From Pseudomonas sp. KNUC1026 (GTDB lineage: Bacteria; Pseudomonadota; Gammaproteobacteria; Pseudomonadales; Pseudomonadaceae), in NCBI RefSeq assembly GCF_021650705.1, contig NZ_CP087138.1:4364001-4428000 (forward strand): a stretch of 64,000 bases of DNA, read 5' to 3'. Below, piece by piece: positions 28,516-38,559 of the stretch (its first letter is position 1; the number at the start of each line of letters is the position of its first letter). The notes under the pieces were generated by a model. The model had not been told where the DNA came from. It ran no database searches and saw nothing but the letters and a program-made list of their open reading frames with translations. Position numbers and translations under genes: made by a program.

Positions 28516-29568
28516 ATGCACCGCATCGCCCCTACTCTGCTACTCGCTCTGGTTGCGAACACCGCCCTGGCCGCTGACCAGCCACCGCTGTACGCCACCT
28601 ACAAGGATTGGCTGATCGGCTGCGACAACACCCGCACCTGCACCGCCATCGGCGCCGTGCAGCAGCGCGATGACACCGGCCACGCTACCTTCAGCCTGCG
28701 CATCACCCGTGAAGCCGGGCCTGAAGGTGCGCTGCGCATCGGCGTATTCGACAGCAACCCGGCCAAAGGCCCACCTTCTCTGGACGGCAAGCCGCTGAAG
28801 GCCACCTTCGGCCCCGGCCAACTCAACGAGGGTGAAGTGCCCGAGCAATTCGCGGCTACGGGCGCACAGGCGCTGGCGCTCGTCCGCGAGCTGCGCGATG
28901 GGCACAACCTGGTGCTGCCCACCCAGGAGGGAGAGGCATTCGCCTCATTGGCTGGGATGAGCGCCGCCTTGCTGCAGATGGACGCCGTGCAGGGCCGGGT
29001 AGGCACGCAAACAGCACTGGCCCGCCCAGGCGACAACCCTGCCAGCAGTGTGCCCTTGGCGCCAGTAGCGCCTGAGCCGCCGACCTGGCAAGCGCCGGCC
29101 CCAATGAGCGAAGCCACCGCCCAGCGCATCGGCGAGGCGGCCATCGCCGCGACCCGCGAGGACTGGAAACAAACGTTGGACGACGACAGCCCTGCACAAG
29201 CACAGGCCTATGCCCTGAACGCCAGCCAGGCACTGGTGCTGATCAAGACCGGCTGCGCCGCTTACAACTGCACCTACAGCCTCTACCAGACGCCGCTGGC
29301 GCATCCCGAGCAGGCGCGGCGAATTGAGCTGCCTCAGCCAGTGCCAGTGGATGACGACATGCCGGGCGGCGATTTCCGCTTCGACCCGGCCAGCGGCGAG
29401 CTCACGAGCGAGTTCATGGCGATGGGCATGGGCGGTTGCGGCACCTCGATCCGCTGGCGCTTCGACGGCAGTGGCTTCGCCTTGGTAGACGCCCGCCAGA
29501 TGAGCGCCTGCATGGGCCTGGCCCAGGCCTACTGGCCAGTGCTGTGGCGGACTTCGCCAAGCCGCTGA
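28516..29568 (+). CDS. DUF1176 domain exported protein
   Basis: This 350-residue secreted protein has a signal peptide (MHRIAPTLLLALVANTALAA). The DUF1176 family pattern includes YKDWLIGCDNTRTCTAIG near the mature N-terminus, CAAYNCTYSLYQTPL, and the C-terminal GGCGTSIRWRFDG and MSACMGLAQAYWP. Cysteines are in even number, consistent with periplasmic disulfides. Function is unknown. The 3' end overlaps the convergent membrane-protein gene by 40 bases. Confidence 0.83.
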   Translation: MHRIAPTLLLALVANTALAADQPPLYATYKDWLIGCDNTRTCTAIGAVQQRDDTGHATFSLRITREAGPEGALRIGVFDSNPAKGPPSLDGKPLKATFGPGQLNEGEVPEQFAATGAQALALVRELRDGHNLVLPTQEGEAFASLAGMSAALLQMDAVQGRVGTQTALARPGDNPASSVPLAPVAPEPPTWQAPAPMSEATAQRIGEAAIAATREDWKQTLDDDSPAQAQAYALNASQALVLIKTGCAAYNCTYSLYQTPLAHPEQARRIELPQPVPVDDDMPGGDFRFDPASGELTSEFMAMGMGGCGTSIRWRFDGSGFALVDARQMSACMGLAQAYWPVLWRTSPSR

Positions 29569-30188
29569 ACGCCGGGAAACAACAACGCCAGGGTGTGCCT
29601 GGCCTGGGCGGCTTCGACATAGCTGTAAATGAGTTGGACGACTTGCCTGTGCTTCAGCGGTTCGCCGTCGAGGGTAAGGCGCACATACCACAGCTTGATC
29701 TGAAGGCCGCCTGCGATGGGCCAGGCGTCTGGCACGGCCAGCGACCTGTAACAACGGGGGCTCAGCGGTGGCGCGCCCTTGGGCGCATGCACGGTAAACG
29801 CCAGTGTGGTGTGCAGGTAACTCTGCTCCAGAACGAACTCGCTGAACTGGTACAACTGAGCCGGCTCCGGAGAGTTGGCGAAGGCCAGGGTATCAGGCGT
29901 GAGCGCCAGCACCACGCAGCCGTGCCGCCGCCACAGTGCCCGCGCGATGGCCAGCCCGGCCCCACCGGCTGCGATGAACAGCAAGGCCGGCCCCCATACC
30001 AGGATCGAATGCGCAAACGCCTGGTTGGCCCAGAGCAACCAGGCGCCGATTACCAAGGGCGCGCCTGCTGCGAGCCCCAGCAAACAGGCCTGCACTCGGC
30101 AGCGTTCACTCAGCTCGCAACTGTGTTGCGGGCCTTCGGCGGCGGTTTGCAGGGCTTGCAGATGCGCCTGCCGCTCCAGGTCATCCAT
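29529..30188 (-). CDS. Uncharacterised two-helix membrane protein, last gene of the SPFH/P1B-ATPase operon
   Basis: A 219-residue protein with a cytoplasmic N-terminus, two adjacent transmembrane helices (LLGLAAGAPLVIGAWLLW and ILVWGPALLFIAAGGAGLAI) and a C-terminal domain of alternating strands ending in a helix. The layout resembles bacterial PH-like membrane proteins and matches the gene just upstream, so the two may be diverged paralogues. I recognise no named family. It begins 1 base after the preceding gene's stop. Confidence 0.6.
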   Translation of the reverse strand: MDDLERQAHLQALQTAAEGPQHSCELSERCRVQACLLGLAAGAPLVIGAWLLWANQAFAHSILVWGPALLFIAAGGAGLAIARALWRRHGCVVLALTPDTLAFANSPEPAQLYQFSEFVLEQSYLHTTLAFTVHAPKGAPPLSPRCYRSLAVPDAWPIAGGLQIKLWYVRLTLDGEPLKHRQVVQLIYSYVEAAQARHTLALLFPGVQRLGEVRHSTGQ

Positions 30189-30189
30189 C

Positions 30190-30843
30190 TCAGCGCAGCG
30201 TGTCGAGCTGGCGTTGCGCTTTAGCAGCCAGTACGTAGGCGTTGAGCAAGGCGCCTGCGTCTTCAGGCTTGAGCTTCTGGCCGCGAGCCATCAGCCCGGC
30301 AGACTGAATCAGGATGTGCGGTTCTGGCTTTTTCAGCGCCATGGCCTGGTTGCCGAACATCACCTTCACAGGGCGATGGGTGGGCATGGCCACCTCAGGG
30401 TCGATGGCGAGGTTCTGCACCAGTAACCAGCCGCCTTCATGCACACCGATGTCGACCACGTCGGCCAATTCCACCGGCCCGCTGAGGGCATCGTGGAACA
30501 GCTGGCGGCGGGTCAGGCGCATGAAGGGGTGTTTGCCGGCATCGCGGTGCTGCCAGGTGAGGAAGGCGAACACCAGCGCCAGGACCACACCACAGATCAC
30601 CAACCCGGTTTTGCCCTGATGTACGCCCAGGAACGCGCCGATCAGCGAGAAGGCAATCAGCAGTGGGCCCACTATCAGAAAGCGCCGAGTATTGGTCAGC
30701 TCGGTCTGCTCCGGTACGTGCTCCACGACTTGCTTGAGCTCGGCTATCACACGGTGGCGCTGGGCTTCGCGCGACTGGTCGTACTCGGCACTGAGTGTGC
30801 CGGCCAGGCTGGAAAGTGGATCAGGCTGCTGCGGGGTCGTCAT
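30190..30843 (-). CDS. Uncharacterised two-helix membrane protein with PH-like tail
   Basis: A 217-residue protein with a charged N-terminus (QSREAQRHRVIAELKQVVEH), two close transmembrane helices (FLIVGPLLIAFSLIGAFLGV and GLVICGVVLALVFAFLTW) and a C-terminal domain starting MRLTRRQLFHDALSGPVEL that reads like a PH-type sandwich. The family is not recognised. It lies 98 bases downstream of the P1B ATPase on the same strand and is likely in the same transcript. Confidence 0.6.
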   Translation of the reverse strand: MTTPQQPDPLSSLAGTLSAEYDQSREAQRHRVIAELKQVVEHVPEQTELTNTRRFLIVGPLLIAFSLIGAFLGVHQGKTGLVICGVVLALVFAFLTWQHRDAGKHPFMRLTRRQLFHDALSGPVELADVVDIGVHEGGWLLVQNLAIDPEVAMPTHRPVKVMFGNQAMALKKPEPHILIQSAGLMARGQKLKPEDAGALLNAYVLAAKAQRQLDTLR

Positions 30844-30941
30844 CGGGGCATCCTCGGGTAGGCTGGAAACCCGTCATTATCCTGCCCCGCTCGCAGGCCC
30901 GGCAGATGCCAGGCCGATGCTCACAACAATGCCCGCCGGCC

Positions 30942-32837
30942 TCACAAGCCCTCGCCCAGGTGCTCCTCGAACCTGAGCAGCCGCCCGGCATTGCCCAGTA
31001 CCAGCAAGGTGCTCAGGTTGTGCAACACCGCGGCGATCATCGCCCCGGCAGCGCCCAGCCAGCCGAAGGCCGCAAAGGCGACGATAGCGATGGTCCAGCC
31101 GATGCCGATGATGACGTTGGCGTGCAAGGTGCGCCGGCACTGGCGGCTCAGCCGCACGCAGGTGCCGAGGCGGCGCAGGTCGCTGCCGATCAGCACGATG
31201 TCGGCCGACGCCAGGGCGATGTCGGCACCGCCGGCACCCATGGCCACACCCACCACGCCGGCCTTGAGCGCCAGCGAATCGTTGATGCCATCGCCCACCA
31301 CCATCGGGCGAAAGCCTTGGTCGATTTCTGCCAGTACGCGGTTGAGCTTGTCCTCGGGCAACGCCTGCGCCTGCACTGCCTGGATGCCCACTTGCGCGGC
31401 CACTCGGTCGGCCACGCTCTGGCGGTCGCCCGTCAGCAGCAGCTGCCGGCCCAGGCCCAGTTCGGTGAGCTCGGCCAGTGCCTGCGCGGCCTCGGCCTTG
31501 GGCGTGTCGGCCAGCAACAGCCAGCCGAGGAAACGCCCGCCCAGCGCCAGCCCGGCGATAGGGCCGTCATGATCGGGCACCGGGGCGGTCGCCACGCCCA
31601 AGGCGTCGAACAATTCAGGGCGGCCCAGCGCGGCAACACCTTGCTCGGTACTGGCCAACACACCGAGGCCCTGGCGCTCCTCGATACCATCGAGCGCCAG
31701 CATCTGCTCGTGAGGCACCAGGCTCGCCAGCGCACGGCTGACCGGATGACTGCTGGCGTGGCCAAGGCTTGCGGCCAAGCGGTGCAGCGCTGCGGTGTCG
31801 CCCTGTTGTGCGTCGATGCCTTGCAGGCGCAGGGCGCCGTGGGTCAGCGTGCCGGTCTTGTCGAGCACCACACTGGTGAGGTCGGCCAACTCTTCGAGGA
31901 AGGCCGAGCCACGAATCAGAATGCCATGCCGCGCGGCCACGGCGACCCCGGCAATGGCAGTGGCCGGTGCCGACAGCACCAGCGCACATGGGCAGGCGGC
32001 CACCAGCACGGCGAGCATGGCCTGGGCATCCTGGGTCACGAACCAGGTCACCGCCGCCACCAGCAGCACCAGCACCTGATAGGCCCCGGCGTGGCGCTCC
32101 AGCAGGCGGGTAATCGGTGGCTTGGCGCGCTCGGCGCTCTGCATCAGGGCAATGACCTTGCCCAGCGTCGAATCGCTGCCGGTGCGAGTCACTTCCACGC
32201 GCAGCAAGCCGTCGAGGTTGATACTGCCGGCCAGTACGCTTTCACCCTCGCGCACGCGCTGGGGCACCGATTCGCCGGTGAGCGTTGCGGTGTCGAGGCT
32301 GGCCTGGCCACTGCGCACCACCCCATCGGCGGGCACCTGGTCGCCAGCGCGCACCTCGACCTGGTCGCCGGCCTGCAAGGTGCTGTTGTCGACTTCGCGG
32401 ATGCCGCCATCGGCCAACAGGCGGGCCTGGCTGCGCGTCAGCTGGCCCAAGGCGTCGATGGCCTGCTGCGAGCCGATCACGCTGCGCTCCTCCAGCACGT
32501 GGCCGAAGATCATGATGATCGGCAGCAAGGCTGCGGTGAGCAGGTCGCCGCTGGCCCAGGCGCCGATCATCGCCAGGGCGATGAGTTGATCGGTGATGCC
32601 GTGCAGGCTGGGGTGGCGCAGGCTGAACCAGGCCGAGCGCAGCACCGGCACCGCCACCAGCAACGAGGCCAGGCCCAGCAGGCAATCGCCGACCTGAGCC
32701 TGGTCAGCCGCCCAGGCGCGCCAGCCCAGGCCCAGCAGCAACAGGCCGAGTGCGAGCATGGCCAGGGTCAGTTGCCGCGCAGCGCGGCGTTGCTCGCCCT
32801 GGCTGAGCAGGGGCGCTGTGTGTACGTGGGCGCTCAT
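30942..32837 (-). CDS. P1B-type heavy-metal-translocating ATPase
   Basis: A 631-residue metal pump with the actuator motif TGES, the metal-binding membrane motif ACPCALVLS, the phosphorylation motif DKTGTLTHG, an HP dipeptide in GHASSHPVSRAL and GDGINDS in the ATP-hinge. The CPC motif and short N-terminus without a CxxC domain suggest a P1B pump. The metal (copper, zinc or other) is not certain. It overlaps the upstream HflK-like gene by ATGA and is the fourth gene of the operon. Confidence 0.87.
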   Translation of the reverse strand: MSAHVHTAPLLSQGEQRRAARQLTLAMLALGLLLLGLGWRAWAADQAQVGDCLLGLASLLVAVPVLRSAWFSLRHPSLHGITDQLIALAMIGAWASGDLLTAALLPIIMIFGHVLEERSVIGSQQAIDALGQLTRSQARLLADGGIREVDNSTLQAGDQVEVRAGDQVPADGVVRSGQASLDTATLTGESVPQRVREGESVLAGSINLDGLLRVEVTRTGSDSTLGKVIALMQSAERAKPPITRLLERHAGAYQVLVLLVAAVTWFVTQDAQAMLAVLVAACPCALVLSAPATAIAGVAVAARHGILIRGSAFLEELADLTSVVLDKTGTLTHGALRLQGIDAQQGDTAALHRLAASLGHASSHPVSRALASLVPHEQMLALDGIEERQGLGVLASTEQGVAALGRPELFDALGVATAPVPDHDGPIAGLALGGRFLGWLLLADTPKAEAAQALAELTELGLGRQLLLTGDRQSVADRVAAQVGIQAVQAQALPEDKLNRVLAEIDQGFRPMVVGDGINDSLALKAGVVGVAMGAGGADIALASADIVLIGSDLRRLGTCVRLSRQCRRTLHANVIIGIGWTIAIVAFAAFGWLGAAGAMIAAVLHNLSTLLVLGNAGRLLRFEEHLGEGL

Positions 32838-33871
32838 CGGTCGGCTCCCTGAAGGATCAAACGGCTGTCGTCGCGGGGGTCGACGGTGGTGACCGAGCCG
32901 GCCTTGCCGAGAATCGCCGGGAGCCTTTCGCGGTACAGGCGCAGCGCCAGGCCGGGGTCATCACTGCGGGCGAGGCCGGTGATGGTGGCCGTGGCGGCCT
33001 GGGCCTGCGCCACCTGTTCGCTGGCTTGAGCGTGGGCCACGGCGAGCAGGCGGTCAGCCTTCTGGGTAGCGGCTTGCAGGGTCTTTTGTGCGTCGTTGCG
33101 GGCGGTGGCCAAAGCCTTGTCTGCCTCCTGCGTGGCGGTGAGCACCGCATTGAACGCGCTTACCGCGTCGGCCGGCAGGCTGGACTGCACGTCCACCCGC
33201 TCCAGTTCCACACCCAGGCCCTGGCCAGTGGCCTCCAGCTCGCGCAGGCGCTGGTTGGCGCTTTGCACCAGGTCGGCGCGCAAGCGCTCACGGCGCTCGG
33301 CGGCCTGGTTGCCCTGGCTGAGCATCTCCGGGCGCGCCACCAGGATGGTATCCAGGTCACGCGCAGCAGCCAGGCCGATGGCGCTGCGGGTAATCACCCG
33401 GTCCAGCGCTGGCAGCACATGATCGCCCTGCAACACCCAGGCGCGCGGGTCGGTGACTCGGTAGAACACTTGCAGGTCCAGCTGCACCACGCCGGCATCG
33501 CCCGTGAGCAGGTAACCGGAACCGGCCAGCGCATCACTCACCGGGGTTACGTAGCTGGCTTTGAGCTCCGCGTCGCGGGCCGCGTTGCTACGTTGCAGGC
33601 CTTGCACGTGCAATTGCAGCACGCGCTCGGGGCCCGGCACGGTAACCACTTGTTCGACCGGCTGCGGCCAGGCCATCAGCAGGCCGGCGCCGGCCACCCG
33701 CTCGATGGCGCCAAAGCGCAGCACCACGGCACGATCCTGCGGCGCCACCTGGCGCACGTTGGAGAACAGCCAGGCCAGCGCCGCCAGCAGCGTCACCAGA
33801 TACAGGCCGATGAAGGCCAGCCGCGTCGCTTGGTGCCAAGGGCCAACGCCCCGTTCGCTGAGCTGGCTCAT
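32834..33871 (-). CDS. SPFH/HflK-type membrane protein
   Basis: A 345-residue protein with one N-terminal membrane anchor (LAFIGLYLVTLLAALAWLF), an SPFH/band-7 domain (QDRAVVLRFGAIERVAGAGL, YRVTDPRAWVLQG), and a long Ala/Gln-rich coiled coil (ATARNDAQKTLQAATQKAD). HflK/HflC proteins form large cages around the FtsH protease. This copy is a paralogue outside the hflKC locus. It overlaps both neighbours by 4 bases, so it is translationally coupled. Confidence 0.8.
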   Translation of the reverse strand: MSQLSERGVGPWHQATRLAFIGLYLVTLLAALAWLFSNVRQVAPQDRAVVLRFGAIERVAGAGLLMAWPQPVEQVVTVPGPERVLQLHVQGLQRSNAARDAELKASYVTPVSDALAGSGYLLTGDAGVVQLDLQVFYRVTDPRAWVLQGDHVLPALDRVITRSAIGLAAARDLDTILVARPEMLSQGNQAAERRERLRADLVQSANQRLRELEATGQGLGVELERVDVQSSLPADAVSAFNAVLTATQEADKALATARNDAQKTLQAATQKADRLLAVAHAQASEQVAQAQAATATITGLARSDDPGLALRLYRERLPAILGKAGSVTTVDPRDDSRLILQGADR

Positions 33872-34893
33872 GGCTGCACAGGCGCCTTGCCATCGCCAGG
33901 CGTTGGCCCTTCGACCAGCGCCCGGAACGGCGCAGCGTCGGTGCGCAGCACCAGCCGGCTGCTGGGCGTGATGATCGTGCCGAGGGTGTCCAGCGAGCGC
34001 AGCAGGTTGTACAGCTGCGGGGCGCTGGCGTAGGCCTTGCCGTAGATCTGCGCGGCTTGCACTTTGGCCTGGGCCTGGATGTCGGCGGCCTGCACCGAGG
34101 CGTCTGCCTCCATCACCCGCGCATCGCGCTCGGCCTGCGAACGAATCTGCGCGGCTTGGCGCTTGCCTTCGGCGGTGCGCTCGGTGGCGATGGTTTCGCG
34201 TTCGGCGCGCATGCGGTCGACCGTGGCGTTAAGGGTTACCGAAGGCAAGGTCAGGCGCTCGACGCCCACTTGCAGCACGCGCACACCGTAGGTGTCGAAC
34301 AGGGCTTTTTCGATCTGGTCGCGCAGGCGGGTTTCGAAGGCGTTGATCTGCACCTGGCTGGCGTCGGTGTTCACCAGGCTGGCCAGGTCGAAGCTTGCTG
34401 CGGTGGTTTCCAGCGCGGAGCCCACAAACGTGCGGATCTGCCGTGCGGCTTCATCGGGCTGGTTCTGCACCGCGCGCATGAAGCGCTGCACAGCGTTCTG
34501 GTCGGCCGGCACCTGCCAGGCCACGTAAGCCTGCACGATGATGCGCAGGCCATCGCGGGTGCCGACGTCCTGCAGGCCACTCGACGTGCTGCGCAGGCGC
34601 AGGTCCACCGGCACCGCTGCCTCCAGCGGCGTGGGCAGGCGCCAGGCAAGGCCGGGCTCCAGCAGCACCCGCTGCGGGTTGCCGAAGCGCGTCACCACCA
34701 TGGCCTCGCCCGAGCGTACCTGCACCAGGCTCGCGGCGATGGCCGCGAACGCGACCAGCACGAAGGCCACGGCAAAGCCGGCCCAGGGCCAGGGCCCGGC
34801 GTGCTCTGGCGCACCGTGGTGGTGATGGTGGTGGCCGTGGTGATGGTGATGATGGCCGTGGTGGTCATCGTGGGTGTGGGTCGGGTTGCTCAA
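33868..34893 (-). CDS. SPFH/HflC-type membrane protein with His-rich N-terminus
   Basis: A 341-residue SPFH protein. Residues 6-26 contain 16 histidines, directly before the single membrane helix (AGFAVAFVLVAFAAIAASL), so a metal-binding tail is likely. The SPFH core (MVVTRFGNPQRVLLEPGLAW) and coiled coil follow. I start at TTG 34893 because AAGGAG is correctly spaced for it. An in-frame GTG at 34902 sits directly on that site. The His tail and adjacent P1B ATPase together suggest metal handling. Confidence 0.78.
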   Translation of the reverse strand: MSNPTHTHDDHHGHHHHHHGHHHHHHGAPEHAGPWPWAGFAVAFVLVAFAAIAASLVQVRSGEAMVVTRFGNPQRVLLEPGLAWRLPTPLEAAVPVDLRLRSTSSGLQDVGTRDGLRIIVQAYVAWQVPADQNAVQRFMRAVQNQPDEAARQIRTFVGSALETTAASFDLASLVNTDASQVQINAFETRLRDQIEKALFDTYGVRVLQVGVERLTLPSVTLNATVDRMRAERETIATERTAEGKRQAAQIRSQAERDARVMEADASVQAADIQAQAKVQAAQIYGKAYASAPQLYNLLRSLDTLGTIITPSSRLVLRTDAAPFRALVEGPTPGDGKAPVQP

Positions 34894-34905
34894 GTCAGCC
34901 ACTCC

Positions 34906-36834
34906 TTAACGAACGGCGCGCGGTGGCGTGGCGTCCACCGGGGCGAAGAAGGTGCGCAGGTCGAGGGTCGGCGCGCTGCCGCCTCCGAGCCGGTGATCGA
35001 GTATCAGCAGTTTGCCTTGGGCCAGGCCCAGGCTCAGTTGCGCCAGGTAGCGCTCGAAGATGAACGCCTGGCCGGCGCTGGCATACGCCTGGCGCTCGGC
35101 TTCGAAGGTTCGGTCGGCAGCCTGGGCGGCGGCGTGGTTCTCACGGGCCGAGGCTTCGGCCTGGGTGCTGACGTCGAACGCTACCAGCTGCGCTTGGCTC
35201 ATCTGTTCGGCGGCCGCGCCGCGCTCGCGAGCCACCAGCGCCTGGGCGCTGATCTGCGCAGCCTGCACGGCATGATAGGCGTTGGCGGCACCGGCCGGCG
35301 GGTGAATGGCTTCCACCACCGTGGCCAGCACCTCCACGCCGCTACCGAGTTTGTGCAGGTCTGCCTGCACGGCCTCGCCGATGCGTTGCGACAGGCCTTG
35401 GCGATCCTCGCCCAGCAGGCCATCCAGGGTGCTGGAGGCCAGGCTGTGCACCAGCACCCGGCTGGCGGTGTCGCGGATCAGTTGCGGTACGTCGGCGCTG
35501 TGGTATGTGGCAGCCAGGGCGTCGGCGTCGCTCAGGCCGATGCGGTAGATGAAGCGCACGTCCATGTTCACCACCTGGAAATTCTGCTGCGCGCCGCTGC
35601 TGCTGGCGATCACCTGGGTGTTGTCACGCGCGTGGGTAGCGTCCCAGAGGCGGTCGGCGCTCACCGGGGCGGGGCCGTCTGCGGTGGCGGCGCTGGGCGC
35701 GGCGGCACCTTCCAGGCCGGTGGCGAGTTCGTGAACGGTGCCGTTTTCCACCGGGATCACTCGGCCCAGCGGCCAAGGCAGCCCCACATGCAGGCCCGGG
35801 CCGAGCACCCGCAGCGGGTTGCCGAACTGCTCGTACACGCCCCGGCCGTCCAGTGGCACCTGGCGTACGCCACTGAGTGCCCAGCCCAGCAGCGCCACCA
35901 CGGTAAACACCGGCAGCGCGGCGCGGCGCATGTAGTTGAAGGCCCAGATCTGCCGCAGGTCGATACCGAAGCGGCCTTTGAGCTCTTGTTGCAGCGCCTG
36001 CAGCGGGCGCGGCGGCCAGCGCAGCAGCCCGGCAACGAAGCTGTCGGCCAGCATCGGCGGTTCCAGGCTGGGCCGGCGCGGGCTGAACCATGACAGCACC
36101 GCGCGCACCGCCAGCTCCAACGCAACCGCCGCCGGCAGCAGGCCACTGAGGGTCGCCACTCGCGCAGGCCAGAGGTTGTCGGGGCTGTAGAACAGCAGGC
36201 AGAGCGCATTGATCAGCAGCTCGGCCAGCGCCACCCGCAAGATCAACGCCAGTGCCCTGGCTTCGGGCCATTGCGCGAGGTTGGCCTGCGTGAGGTGGCG
36301 CTCGGCAACCAGCAGGCCGAACGCCAGCAACAGGCTCAGGGCGACGGCGATGTTGCCAGCCATCCCGGCCTGGCCACCGGGGATCGCAAGGTCCCAAGGC
36401 AGGCGGATGCACAGCATCGCCAACAGGCTCCAGCCCAGCAGCCATAGCGACGCCAGGCCCAGCCTCCGGGCGCTGCCGAGCAGGCCCCGGCTGATGCGAT
36501 CCAGCGTGCGTTCGTACCAGCCAGTGGCCTCGGCAGCTACTTCAGCCTTGGCCGGCACGGTGGCGAGCAACGCCGCACGCCAGCGTGCCGGCTCCCGGGC
36601 GGCCTGTACAGCCGCCCCTGCGAGCAGAAAGCTTGCGGCCAGGTTGCACAGCACGGTCGGCCACAGCGTGGTGGCCGCGAACAAGCCTGCGAAGGTGGCC
36701 GAGGCCAGCAACACGGCTACCAGCGCGGCGCATGCCAGGCCATAACGCAACAGCACCCGCGCCTGCCCCGCCGCGCTCAGCACGCTGGGCAGCTCGCGCA
36801 CCTCTGTGGCCGCTGCTTGCAGATCGATACCCAT
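34906..36834 (-). CDS. Large SPFH/HflK-type protein with multi-helix N-terminal membrane domain
   Basis: A 642-residue protein that begins with six or more transmembrane helices (residues about 30-310), an architecture unlike canonical HflK. An additional helix (AALPVFTVVALLGWAL) and an SPFH domain (YEQFGNPLRVLGPGLHVGLP, DVRFIYRIGLSDADAL) with coiled coil follow. I use ATG 36834, though GTG 36840 is possible. It is the first gene of the six-gene operon. The promoter region upstream ends at an IS256 insertion. Confidence 0.75.
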   Translation of the reverse strand: MGIDLQAAATEVRELPSVLSAAGQARVLLRYGLACAALVAVLLASATFAGLFAATTLWPTVLCNLAASFLLAGAAVQAAREPARWRAALLATVPAKAEVAAEATGWYERTLDRISRGLLGSARRLGLASLWLLGWSLLAMLCIRLPWDLAIPGGQAGMAGNIAVALSLLLAFGLLVAERHLTQANLAQWPEARALALILRVALAELLINALCLLFYSPDNLWPARVATLSGLLPAAVALELAVRAVLSWFSPRRPSLEPPMLADSFVAGLLRWPPRPLQALQQELKGRFGIDLRQIWAFNYMRRAALPVFTVVALLGWALSGVRQVPLDGRGVYEQFGNPLRVLGPGLHVGLPWPLGRVIPVENGTVHELATGLEGAAAPSAATADGPAPVSADRLWDATHARDNTQVIASSSGAQQNFQVVNMDVRFIYRIGLSDADALAATYHSADVPQLIRDTASRVLVHSLASSTLDGLLGEDRQGLSQRIGEAVQADLHKLGSGVEVLATVVEAIHPPAGAANAYHAVQAAQISAQALVARERGAAAEQMSQAQLVAFDVSTQAEASARENHAAAQAADRTFEAERQAYASAGQAFIFERYLAQLSLGLAQGKLLILDHRLGGGSAPTLDLRTFFAPVDATPPRAVR

Positions 36835-37042
36835 CCCCACCCCGAAACATTTCGCAATCTACCGTTACGATATAACGATGGGGGTCAAAATGTCGTGGGG
36901 CGCGAGATGAAAAAAGGGTGGTTCAGGGAGGGTTCAGGGTTTGGGGGCATGTAAATCAGCGAACAGAATGTTCAACCCGTGGGAGGTCGGCTGTGCCGAG
37001 CGACGCGGTTAGTCCGAGCACCCAGTCGGTTGGTGCTTAAGA

Positions 37043-38415
37043 GGGACTATCAGTAATTTTGTGTTCGGGCATCACATGCGTTTAAGGTGCATGACATGCC
37101 AAGCAAAAAGACCCCGGCCGGCAAGGCCAGAAAAGACCTCCCAGAGATCCCCAAAGACCTGGTCGAACAGTTCGTCAAAGGCCCGATGACAGCTGAGGCG
37201 ATCCAGGACATCTCGATGGCCTTCAAGAAGGCGTTGGTCGAGCGCGCACTGGGTGCGGAGCTTGGCTATCACTTGGGCTATGCGTCCGGCGAGACGCGCC
37301 CGGAAGGCACCGATAACCAGCGCAACGGCACCAGCGGCAAGACAGTGCTGACTGACGATGGCCCGCTCAAGCTGGACATTCCCCGCGATCGCGACGGCAG
37401 TTTCGCGCCCATCCTGATTCCCAAGCATGAGCGCCGCTTCACAGGGTTCGACGACAAGATCATCGCCATGTATGCCCGTGGCATGACGGTACGCGAGATC
37501 CGTGCGTTTCTGCTGGAGCAGTACGGCACGGACGTCTCTCATGACTTCATCAGTTCTGTTACTGACGCCGTGATGGAAGAAGTGGGTGCATGGCAACAGC
37601 GGCCTCTGGAGCCGATGTATCCGGTCATTTTCTTCGATGCCTTGCGGGTGAAGATCCGCGATGAAGGTGTGGTCCGCAACAAGGCGATCTACTTGGCGCT
37701 GGGCGTTTTGCCGGACGGCACCCGTGACATTCTGGGTATCTGGATCGAGAACACCGAGGGTGCGAAGTTTTGGTTGAAAGTGTTCAACGACTTGCGCAAC
37801 CGAGGCGTTGAGGATGTGCTGATTGCCGTCACGGACGGACTCAGGGGCATGCCGGAAGCACTGGCGGCTGTTTACCCTGAAACGACTCTGCAAACCTGCA
37901 TCGTCCACCTGATCCGCAATAGCCTTGAATACGCCTCCTGGGACAAACGCAAAGGGCTGGCCAAAGCTCTGAAGCCGATTTATCAGGCACTCAATGCCGA
38001 GGCCGCCGAGCAGGCATTGAACGACTTCGAGGCTGGGCCCTGGGGCAAGCAGTATCCGACGGTTGTTGCCGCGTGGCGGCGGGCTTGGGATCGCGTGATC
38101 CCGTTCTTCGTGTTCCCGCAGGCAATACGCAAGGTGGTCTACACCACCAACGCCATCGAGAGCATCAACGCCCAGTTGCGCAAGATCATCAAGACGCGCG
38201 GGCACTTCCCGAATGACGAAGCGGCGACCAAGCTGATCTGGCTGGGACTGCGAAACATCACCGCCAACTGGGGCAAGGCTGCGCATGACTGGAAAAGTGC
38301 GATGAATCAATTTGCGATCCTGTATGAAGATCGCTTTACCAGGCCAACCTGGTGATTTCACTGTCCGTCAGGTGACGGGCGTTAACCGCCCGCACACAAA
38401 AAATCTGACAGTCCC
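37043..38415 (+). mobile_element. IS256-family insertion sequence
   Basis: The 1373-bp element has imperfect terminal inverted repeats (GGGACTATCAGTAATTTTGT on the left, and GGGACTGTCAGATTTTTTGT read inward from the right). It is flanked by a perfect 8-bp target duplication GCTTAAGA at 37035-37042 and 38416-38423. One intact transposase fills it. It lies between the SPFH operon promoter side and the CDP-alcohol phosphatidyltransferase gene. The intact ends and duplication indicate a recent insertion. Confidence 0.92.
37096..38355 (+). CDS. IS256-family (Mutator-type) DDE transposase
   Basis: A 419-residue transposase with the N-terminal segment AELGYHLGYASGETRPEGTD, NQRNGTSGKTV, the catalytic DDE core (first Asp in VIFFDALRVKIRD, second in IAVTDGLRGMPEAL, Glu in TTNAIESINAQLRK) and LRNITANW near the end. 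The start at 37096 has AAGG 8 bases upstream, while the in-frame GTG at 37087 overlaps that site. The frame is complete and probably active. Confidence 0.92.
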   Translation: MPSKKTPAGKARKDLPEIPKDLVEQFVKGPMTAEAIQDISMAFKKALVERALGAELGYHLGYASGETRPEGTDNQRNGTSGKTVLTDDGPLKLDIPRDRDGSFAPILIPKHERRFTGFDDKIIAMYARGMTVREIRAFLLEQYGTDVSHDFISSVTDAVMEEVGAWQQRPLEPMYPVIFFDALRVKIRDEGVVRNKAIYLALGVLPDGTRDILGIWIENTEGAKFWLKVFNDLRNRGVEDVLIAVTDGLRGMPEALAAVYPETTLQTCIVHLIRNSLEYASWDKRKGLAKALKPIYQALNAEAAEQALNDFEAGPWGKQYPTVVAAWRRAWDRVIPFFVFPQAIRKVVYTTNAIESINAQLRKIIKTRGHFPNDEAATKLIWLGLRNITANWGKAAHDWKSAMNQFAILYEDRFTRPTW

Positions 38416-38559
38416 GCTTAAGATGAGCGACAGATACACGTCGCCCGGCGCAGCCGGCCTCCCACCAAGGCTCAGCTCAGATTGCAAGAGCTAGCACTGC
38501 CCCCTCCCATTCTCTGAAACACCCGCTATCATGGCTCACCCCTTCCAGGATGGATCACC

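Follow-up and report, generated by a model that had tools for sequence, protein, structure and literature searches.

In the window analysed here, a 64,000-nucleotide stretch of the genome of Pseudomonas sp. KNUC1026 (contig NZ_CP087138.1, positions 4,364,001 to 4,428,000), six open reading frames (ORFs) lie in a row on the minus strand between positions 29529 and 36840. The first four encode a large SPFH protein, a second SPFH protein with a histidine (His)-rich tail, a third, HflK-like SPFH protein and a P1B-type ATPase. These four genes form a real unit and are a further member of the hmtA operon type already known in Pseudomonas. We favour, as moderately probable, the reading that this is a zinc-starvation operon in which the SPFH trio gathers or shelters a pump importing zinc and copper. 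An earlier, sequence-only reading of the same DNA had described six minus-strand genes, as the ORF listing of the window bears out, and had proposed an SPFH microdomain organising a metal exporter. Zinc (copper) acquisition is favoured here over export because HmtA, the Pseudomonas aeruginosa counterpart of the pump, is reported to be an importer that is raised by zinc starvation and whose operon promoter is bound by Zur, and because a Zur-like box precedes the genes in the window.

Conservation of the four-gene unit

Scanning genome contigs with the 644-aa large SPFH protein yielded 93 relatives. Of the 80 that were kept, 78 carry a Pseudomonas label (including P. nitroreducens, L082), one is from Rhizobium tubonense and one from Pantoea. 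A search of plasmids added 10 records, which come from Rhizobium, Klebsiella, Paraburkholderia and Burkholderia. The 80 contig loci and five of the ten plasmid records make up the 85 relatives considered below, or 86 loci with the window. In all 85 fetched relatives the large SPFH gene, the two further SPFH genes and the pump gene follow each other in the same order, three copies being incomplete (L053, in which the pump is cut by the contig end; L064, with a shortened HflK-like gene; and L069, in which the pump start is missing). The junction between the HflK-like gene and the pump gene is a 4-bp overlap in 73 of the 86 loci. Of 398 genomes sampled in the phylum, 11 have a match to the His-tailed protein (E <= 1e-50); the same 11, and no others, have a match to the pump (E <= 1e-140), and the two lie at neighbouring positions. 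In the order, 5 of 194 genomes gave a match to the 644-aa protein, that in G093 being weak and limited to the SPFH part, and the pump adjoins a cyclopropane-fatty-acid synthase gene (cfa) in 41 of 79 genomes of the genus, which is a lower bound for the unit there. The presence of the unit in other genera and classes thus amounts to a recurrence beyond chance. The survey of co-occurrence proposed with the sequence-only reading finds the unit conserved far beyond this strain, and the objection raised there, that the association might be confined to it, therefore fails for the SPFH proteins and the pump. A conjugative plasmid of Klebsiella aerogenes (L014) carries the unit with an HflC-like protein devoid of the His tail; the unit of Paraburkholderia sprentiae has genes for a zinc ABC transporter and for a copper chaperone in its vicinity.

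The order of three SPFH genes followed by a P1B pump gene in the window is that of the hmtA operon type. In P. aeruginosa PAO1, PA2439 is assigned to the HflK family, PA2438 and PA2437 to the HflC family, and PA2435 is HmtA (PMC4542158). The three SPFH genes correspond to PA14_33070, 33080 and 33110 (PMC9431628), which have been named PaFlo5, PaFlo6 and PaFlo7 (PMC13086221). The PA7 locus (L089) shows 79% identity to the window for the pump, 78% for the His-tailed protein, 63% for the HflK-like protein and 41 and 62% for the N- and C-terminal parts of the large protein. It probably represents the PA2439-PA2435 cluster, judging by its gene order and organism rather than by direct comparison with PAO1. 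With 78 of the 80 kept loci labelled Pseudomonas, the operon is more widely spread than the ten-species comparison of PMC13086221 suggests, in which it is listed for P. knackmussii and P. syringae only. In three loci (L081, L083 and L089), ~600 bp separate the pump gene from the third SPFH gene. In L089 this stretch holds a small ORF without a Pfam match, whose start resembles a signal peptide as judged by eye and which is probably PA2436.

A Zur-like box and the link to zinc

The box in front of the first gene follows the pattern of the hmtA operon type, and binding of Zur is predicted from it. Scored as GTTATANNATAAC over 89 upstream regions (the window, three further genomes and the 85 loci), it reached at least 9 of 11 positions in 82 regions and 10 or 11 of 11 in 69. 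Of 1,780 base-shuffled regions, which keep base counts only, while the promoters scored are related to each other, 3.8% reached 9 and 0.2% reached 10. After thinning to 20 promoters, the columns of the box were mostly 0.85-1.0 conserved, and a second element, near AC-AAAATTTCAC and seven bases upstream of the box, was conserved about as well. A scan for sigma-70 promoters found none. Upstream of the operon lies an IS256-family element, which locus L018 lacks; for its transposase, the genome contains four identical copies, two at 98% and one that is split in two. The Zur-like box is intact between this element and the large SPFH gene.

The exact pattern GTTATANNRTAAC occurs at eight distinct sites in the genome of the window and gives ten strand hits, compared with five when the pattern is reversed. 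Its neighbours include the operon of the window, zigA (above the cut-off), a partial ORF for a ZnuD-like receptor and an ORF for an N-acetylmuramoyl-L-alanine amidase, the last two below the curated cut-offs; the amidase is presumably part of the zinc response. Another site (L098) lies 5' of a short receptor-like ORF without a family match. The receptor-like ORFs that follow the sites L098 and L099 are both short, and genome completeness is 86%; frameshifts in these genes or in the assembly are possible. Elsewhere in the genome a zur-like gene stands beside a znuA-like gene and znuC, with znuC above its cut-off and the other two just below or below theirs.

The published responses of the P. 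aeruginosa counterparts point in the same direction. In a znuA mutant, PA2434, PA2435, PA2437, PA2438 and PA2439 are up 5.6-14.4-fold; in an electrophoretic mobility shift assay (EMSA), Zur shifted the PA2439 promoter completely only with zinc; zinc depletion raises the proteins of the PA2439-PA2435 cluster, and calprotectin also raises the HmtA system. Together with the Zur-like box and the conserved His-rich tail described below, these responses uphold the link to metals that the sequence-only reading had proposed.

The pump and the direction of transport

The ATPase scores above the NCBIfam cut-offs for TIGR01525 and TIGR01512 and has a CPC motif in transmembrane helix (TM) 6, DKTGT, TGES and GDGxND motifs and LHNLST in its last helix, so that its identification as a P1B metal pump holds. 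The CPC motif is kept in the pumps of all 86 loci and LHNx[SG]T near the end of the pump in 85, the exception being the truncated copy in L053. At this last-helix (TM8) position, the motifs of the other P1B pumps of the genome differ; HNx[SG]T is a distinctive motif that says nothing on transport direction. An N-terminal HMA domain was not found in the pump, whose N-terminus contains between 0 and 11 His across the loci. Import by HmtA reportedly goes back to Lewinson 2009.

Reviews describe HmtA as a Zn/Cu importer, although one of them asks for confirmation, and one review reports that its overexpression leads to hypersensitivity to Zn and Cu and to higher cell metal. The alternative is that the pump exports metal, as the sequence-only reading had assumed. 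During zinc starvation it would then expel wrong metals (Cu, Co, Ni), which would enter through de-repressed uptake systems, or load the periplasm. The review that asks for confirmation of HmtA import also notes that P1B ATPases are usually efflux pumps. Moreover, the score of the pump exceeds the cut-off of the cadmium family model TIGR01512, and the solved structure closest to it in sequence is 7qbz, a cadmium-translocating P-type ATPase. With the model for ZntA-type zinc exporters (NF033775), the pump scores 274.1, below the cut-off of 1240. The overexpression phenotype of HmtA speaks against export, de-repression in zinc starvation fits uptake, and the TM8 motif is unlike those of the other P1B pumps of the genome. 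We therefore do not favour an exporter and consider it rather unlikely.

The three SPFH proteins

All three SPFH assignments are confirmed by Pfam Band_7 scores of 67.2, 109.1 and 77.8 bits (cut-off 23.6). The best NCBIfam models for the trio are HflK (90.9 and 55.2, cut-off 159.4) and HflC (96.5, cut-off 134.4), all below the cut-offs, whereas the HflK and HflC encoded by the separate hflKC genes of the same genome both pass. In a tree of 40 rows, which took in 12 loci as well as four additional SPFH proteins encoded in the genome, every member of the operon trio formed one group; the His-tailed group joined the HflC of the genome and two further SPFH proteins, and the large and HflK-like groups stood on the side of its HflK. 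The deep joins of this tree are unsure because of long branches.

The HflK/C kinship raises the possibility that the trio is a stand-in for HflK/C that tunes the zinc protease FtsH in zinc starvation, its linkage to the pump reflecting shared regulation only. The best family models fit this idea, as do the HflKC-FtsH structures that match the SPFH part of the modelled large protein (see below) and a link to the zinc protease HflB (FtsH) in PMC11761036. We judge it unlikely, given that the trio falls below the cut-offs that the genome's own HflK and HflC pass, that the linkage to the pump is strict and that the unit has no FtsH gene.

The His-tailed protein has 16 His, as noted in the sequence-only reading, which had placed them in residues 6-26; they occupy residues 9-29 of the GTG-start ORF. 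At least 5 His precede the TM of the HflC-like protein in 85 of the 86 loci (median 14.5, maximum 20). The tail is kept by composition and not by exact sequence, since the spacing varies. The side of the membrane on which it would lie rests on homology to HflC.

The large protein contains six hydrophobic segments in its N-terminal part, and a seventh precedes the SPFH domain, in line with the six or more N-terminal helices predicted for it. In the window, its lysine and arginine (K/R) counts by loop are 3, 0, 9, 1, 2, 1 and 9, with 3 in the 30 residues past TM7, and K/R before TM7 outnumber those after it in 83 of the 86 loci. Because the counts alternate along the loops, the charge rule points to an N-terminus in the cytoplasm and an SPFH domain in the periplasm.

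The structure of the large protein was modelled from 44 sequences, with a mean predicted local distance difference test (pLDDT) score of 67.0 and values mostly of 72-95 for residues 10-270. Its C-terminal part matches SPFH structures, including 9cz2 and 7vhq (HflKC-FtsH). The N-terminal part resembles cation diffusion facilitator (CDF) zinc transporters, the best match being YiiP (8f6k; 195 residues, root-mean-square deviation 3.5 A) with a Z score of 14.6, on a scale on which models made largely of helices can score about 14 even when they have no clear relative. Among the matches listed (50 rows, confined to Foldseek top chains), the 14 that extend over the N-terminal part are all CDF/ZnT chains. 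In Foldseek itself, the best CDF row has an E value of 0.36. A comparison of the six-helix profile with 28 CDF-type proteins by hhalign gave probabilities of at most 0.5, and the controls behaved alike (reversed profiles, 0.1-0.3; pump profile, 0.6); these 28 had been picked by position and hydropathy, and the outliers L154 and L171 had been dropped from an initial 30. Cation_efflux (Pfam) had no match among the 44 family members of the large protein, and their helices have no invariant His and no invariant Asp, the sole invariant Asp lying outside them. Homology of the domain to CDF transporters was rejected, the match being structural, with neither sequence-profile support nor a conserved metal site, and the weak resemblance in the model is no more than a lead.

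A model for the unit

In the model that we favour, Zur would leave the box before the large SPFH gene upon zinc shortage, and a single transcript would encode the P1B pump together with three SPFH proteins of the HflK/C type. The pump would bring Zn (and Cu) into the cytoplasm, as published for its P. aeruginosa counterpart. The trio, two members on the HflK side and one on the HflC side, may assemble into a periplasm-facing ring or hetero-cage in the inner membrane, which would contact the pump and gather or shelter it, possibly from FtsH, and a ring of His-rich tails could bind the metal that the pump handles. In Escherichia coli, loss of HflKC destabilises TonB, a precedent for the shielding of an uptake protein.

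Several points weigh against this model. In PA7, the counted Zur-like match lies 259 bp upstream, and at its usual position the box has a weak score of 8 of 11, which agrees with the published description of the P. aeruginosa site as 'weak putative'. No box of this form turned up in the loci from Rhizobium, Burkholderia, Paraburkholderia and Klebsiella, and three of the eight exact GTTATANNRTAAC sites have no clear zinc neighbour. The HflC-like protein of the Klebsiella plasmid copy has 1 His in its tail, and K/R are more numerous after the single TM in 73 of 86 His-tailed and 57 of 86 HflK-like proteins, which does not favour a cytoplasmic N-terminus for these two. In the published work on P. 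aeruginosa, the proteomic table for zinc depletion gives p < 0.05 for PA2438 only (data-dependent acquisition, DDA), and hmtA mRNA is low and not repressed by added zinc. According to a review, Zur bound all zinc-uptake promoters except that of hmtA, an exception at odds with what the paper cited there says of its EMSA. Finally, a paFlo5-6-7 triple deletion had slight effects only in the assays, with ~20% less biofilm and attenuation in Galleria (PMC13086221). The sections of that paper covered here mention no zinc-poor condition, which may explain the slight effects.

A more elaborate form of this model, in which a dedicated, Zur-controlled three-subunit cage would house HmtA, with a ring of His tails relaying or buffering metal and a degenerate CDF-like six-helix domain of the large subunit serving for docking or structure, appears doubtful to us. 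If true, it would be a transporter-cage assembly distinct from both HflK/C-FtsH and flotillin-NfeD. SPFH scaffolds are widespread and few have a known client; the strict genetic linkage found here names a metal pump as the candidate client of such proteins and so makes it testable, with a single set of deletions and a single metal, whether SPFH cages organise or protect particular membrane proteins.

The system had been called little described. The pump, the zinc response and the SPFH trio have each been published, so that this part does not stand. It remains true of their combination, in that searches of the open-licence literature found no paper naming both HmtA and SPFH, none joining SPFH, P-type ATPase, operon and HflK, and none joining 'protease modulator HflK' and P-type ATPase. 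The word 'ATPase' is absent from the main text of PMC13086221, as it is from that of Hinderhofer 2009, in which SPFH6-12 are without documented members. The present analysis adds to the known operon type the His-rich tail in 85 of 86 loci, the HNx[SG]T motif of the pump and the weak, structure-only resemblance to CDF transporters.

Gene layout and neighbouring genes

The features of the region are listed in Table 1. The large SPFH gene likelier starts at the ATG at 36834 (642 aa) than at 36840. The junctions in the four-gene part are +3, -4 and -4 bp, and that between the 217-aa and 219-aa genes is +1 bp. The description of the six genes as mostly overlapping by 4 bases or spaced by a few is thus accurate for the four-gene part and for the pair of small genes and fails between them, because 98 bp part the ATPase gene from the 217-aa gene.

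Table 1. Features of the operon region in the window
Feature	Position	Strand	Remarks
219-aa protein, two hydrophobic segments	29529..30188	-	judged outside the unit
217-aa protein, two hydrophobic segments	30190..30843	-	judged outside the unit
HmtA-type P1B ATPase, 631 aa	30942..32837	-	counterpart of PA2435
HflK-like SPFH protein, 345 aa	32834..33871	-	counterpart of PA2437/PaFlo7
HflC-like SPFH protein, 344 aa, His-tailed	33868..34902	-	counterpart of PA2438/PaFlo6
Large SPFH protein, 644 aa	34906..36840	-	counterpart of PA2439/PaFlo5; six-helix N-terminal domain, cytoplasmic-type loop, seventh TM, HflK-side SPFH domain
Zur-like box GTTATATCGTAAC	36864..36876	-	29 bp 5' of the ATG at 36834
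Second conserved promoter element	36884..36896	-	upstream of the Zur-like box; consensus in relatives given in the text
IS256-family element	37007..38442		
IS256 transposase	37087..38355	+	

The sequence-only reading had counted the two small proteins as PH-like members of the operon. A six-gene system, with both as working parts, is suggested by their position on the same strand directly downstream of the pump gene in the window and in L018. These are the only two loci in which they adjoin the unit; tblastn found neither in the other 84 of the 85 relatives. The 217-aa gene occurs in 6 of 248 genomes of the family. In two of these (G458 and G480) it lies more than 3 Mb from the hmtA unit in contig coordinates; two further carriers (G716 and G791) were outside the check for the unit. 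Its neighbourhoods in four of the five other genomes show different company, namely ORFs with an M48-peptidase-type motif in three (L136, L137 and L138, confirmed by Pfam for L137 only) and a DUF1176-like ORF, recognised by eye, in the fourth (L135); L136 and L137 hold relatives of the 219-aa protein as well. The window also has a DUF1176 gene beside the small genes, on the opposite strand, and the end of its ORF overlaps that of the 219-aa ORF by 40 bases (29529-29568). The 98-bp gap contains a -10-like GATAAT that is kept in L018, and plasmid searches with both small proteins gave no match. The small genes were thus excluded from the unit, and a six-gene system is highly improbable. The label 'PH-like' is likewise unproven, because neither protein belongs to a Pfam or NCBIfam family above the limits (the 217-aa protein has two sub-threshold Pfam matches) and the model of the 217-aa protein, with a mean pLDDT of 43.5, is uninformative.

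Downstream of the pump, 64 loci have a cfa gene. This gene was found in 66 of the 79 genus genomes, in 41 of which the pump adjoins it; 19 have cfa and a cardiolipin-synthase-like gene without the pump, and 6 have neither, some of the regions being only 6 kb long. The pair of lipid genes, considered as a possible part of the unit, was not counted as such because this frequent neighbourhood also exists without it. In L019 (14375-15996) and similar loci, genes for an MbnB/TglH/ChrH-type enzyme and a DUF2063 protein lie between the pump gene and cfa, with tblastn matches in 12 and 13 of the 86 loci, respectively. Gene pairs of this kind are known from metal-related pathways for ribosomally synthesised and post-translationally modified peptides (RiPPs).

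Comparison with known systems

The closest known system is the PA2439-PA2434 hmtA cluster of P. aeruginosa, which has the same gene order, the same kinds of genes and the same His tail as the window. PA7 differs in having a further small ORF, which follows the third SPFH gene and precedes the pump gene, and in its Zur-like box, that of the window being the stronger. The window pump shares its place in the operon and its CPC motif with HmtA and is 75-80% identical to the pumps of other Pseudomonas loci, whereas its N-terminus has 2 His and that of the PA7 copy 7. With the HflK/HflC-FtsH cage the unit has SPFH proteins of the HflK/C kind in common, and the large protein probably has the same topology; it differs in having three subunits and not two, a linked metal pump, the six-helix domain and the His tail. 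In the flotillin/stomatin-NfeD operons (Hinderhofer 2009), too, an SPFH scaffold is encoded with an operon partner, but in the window this partner is a P1B pump and no NfeD gene is found among the four.

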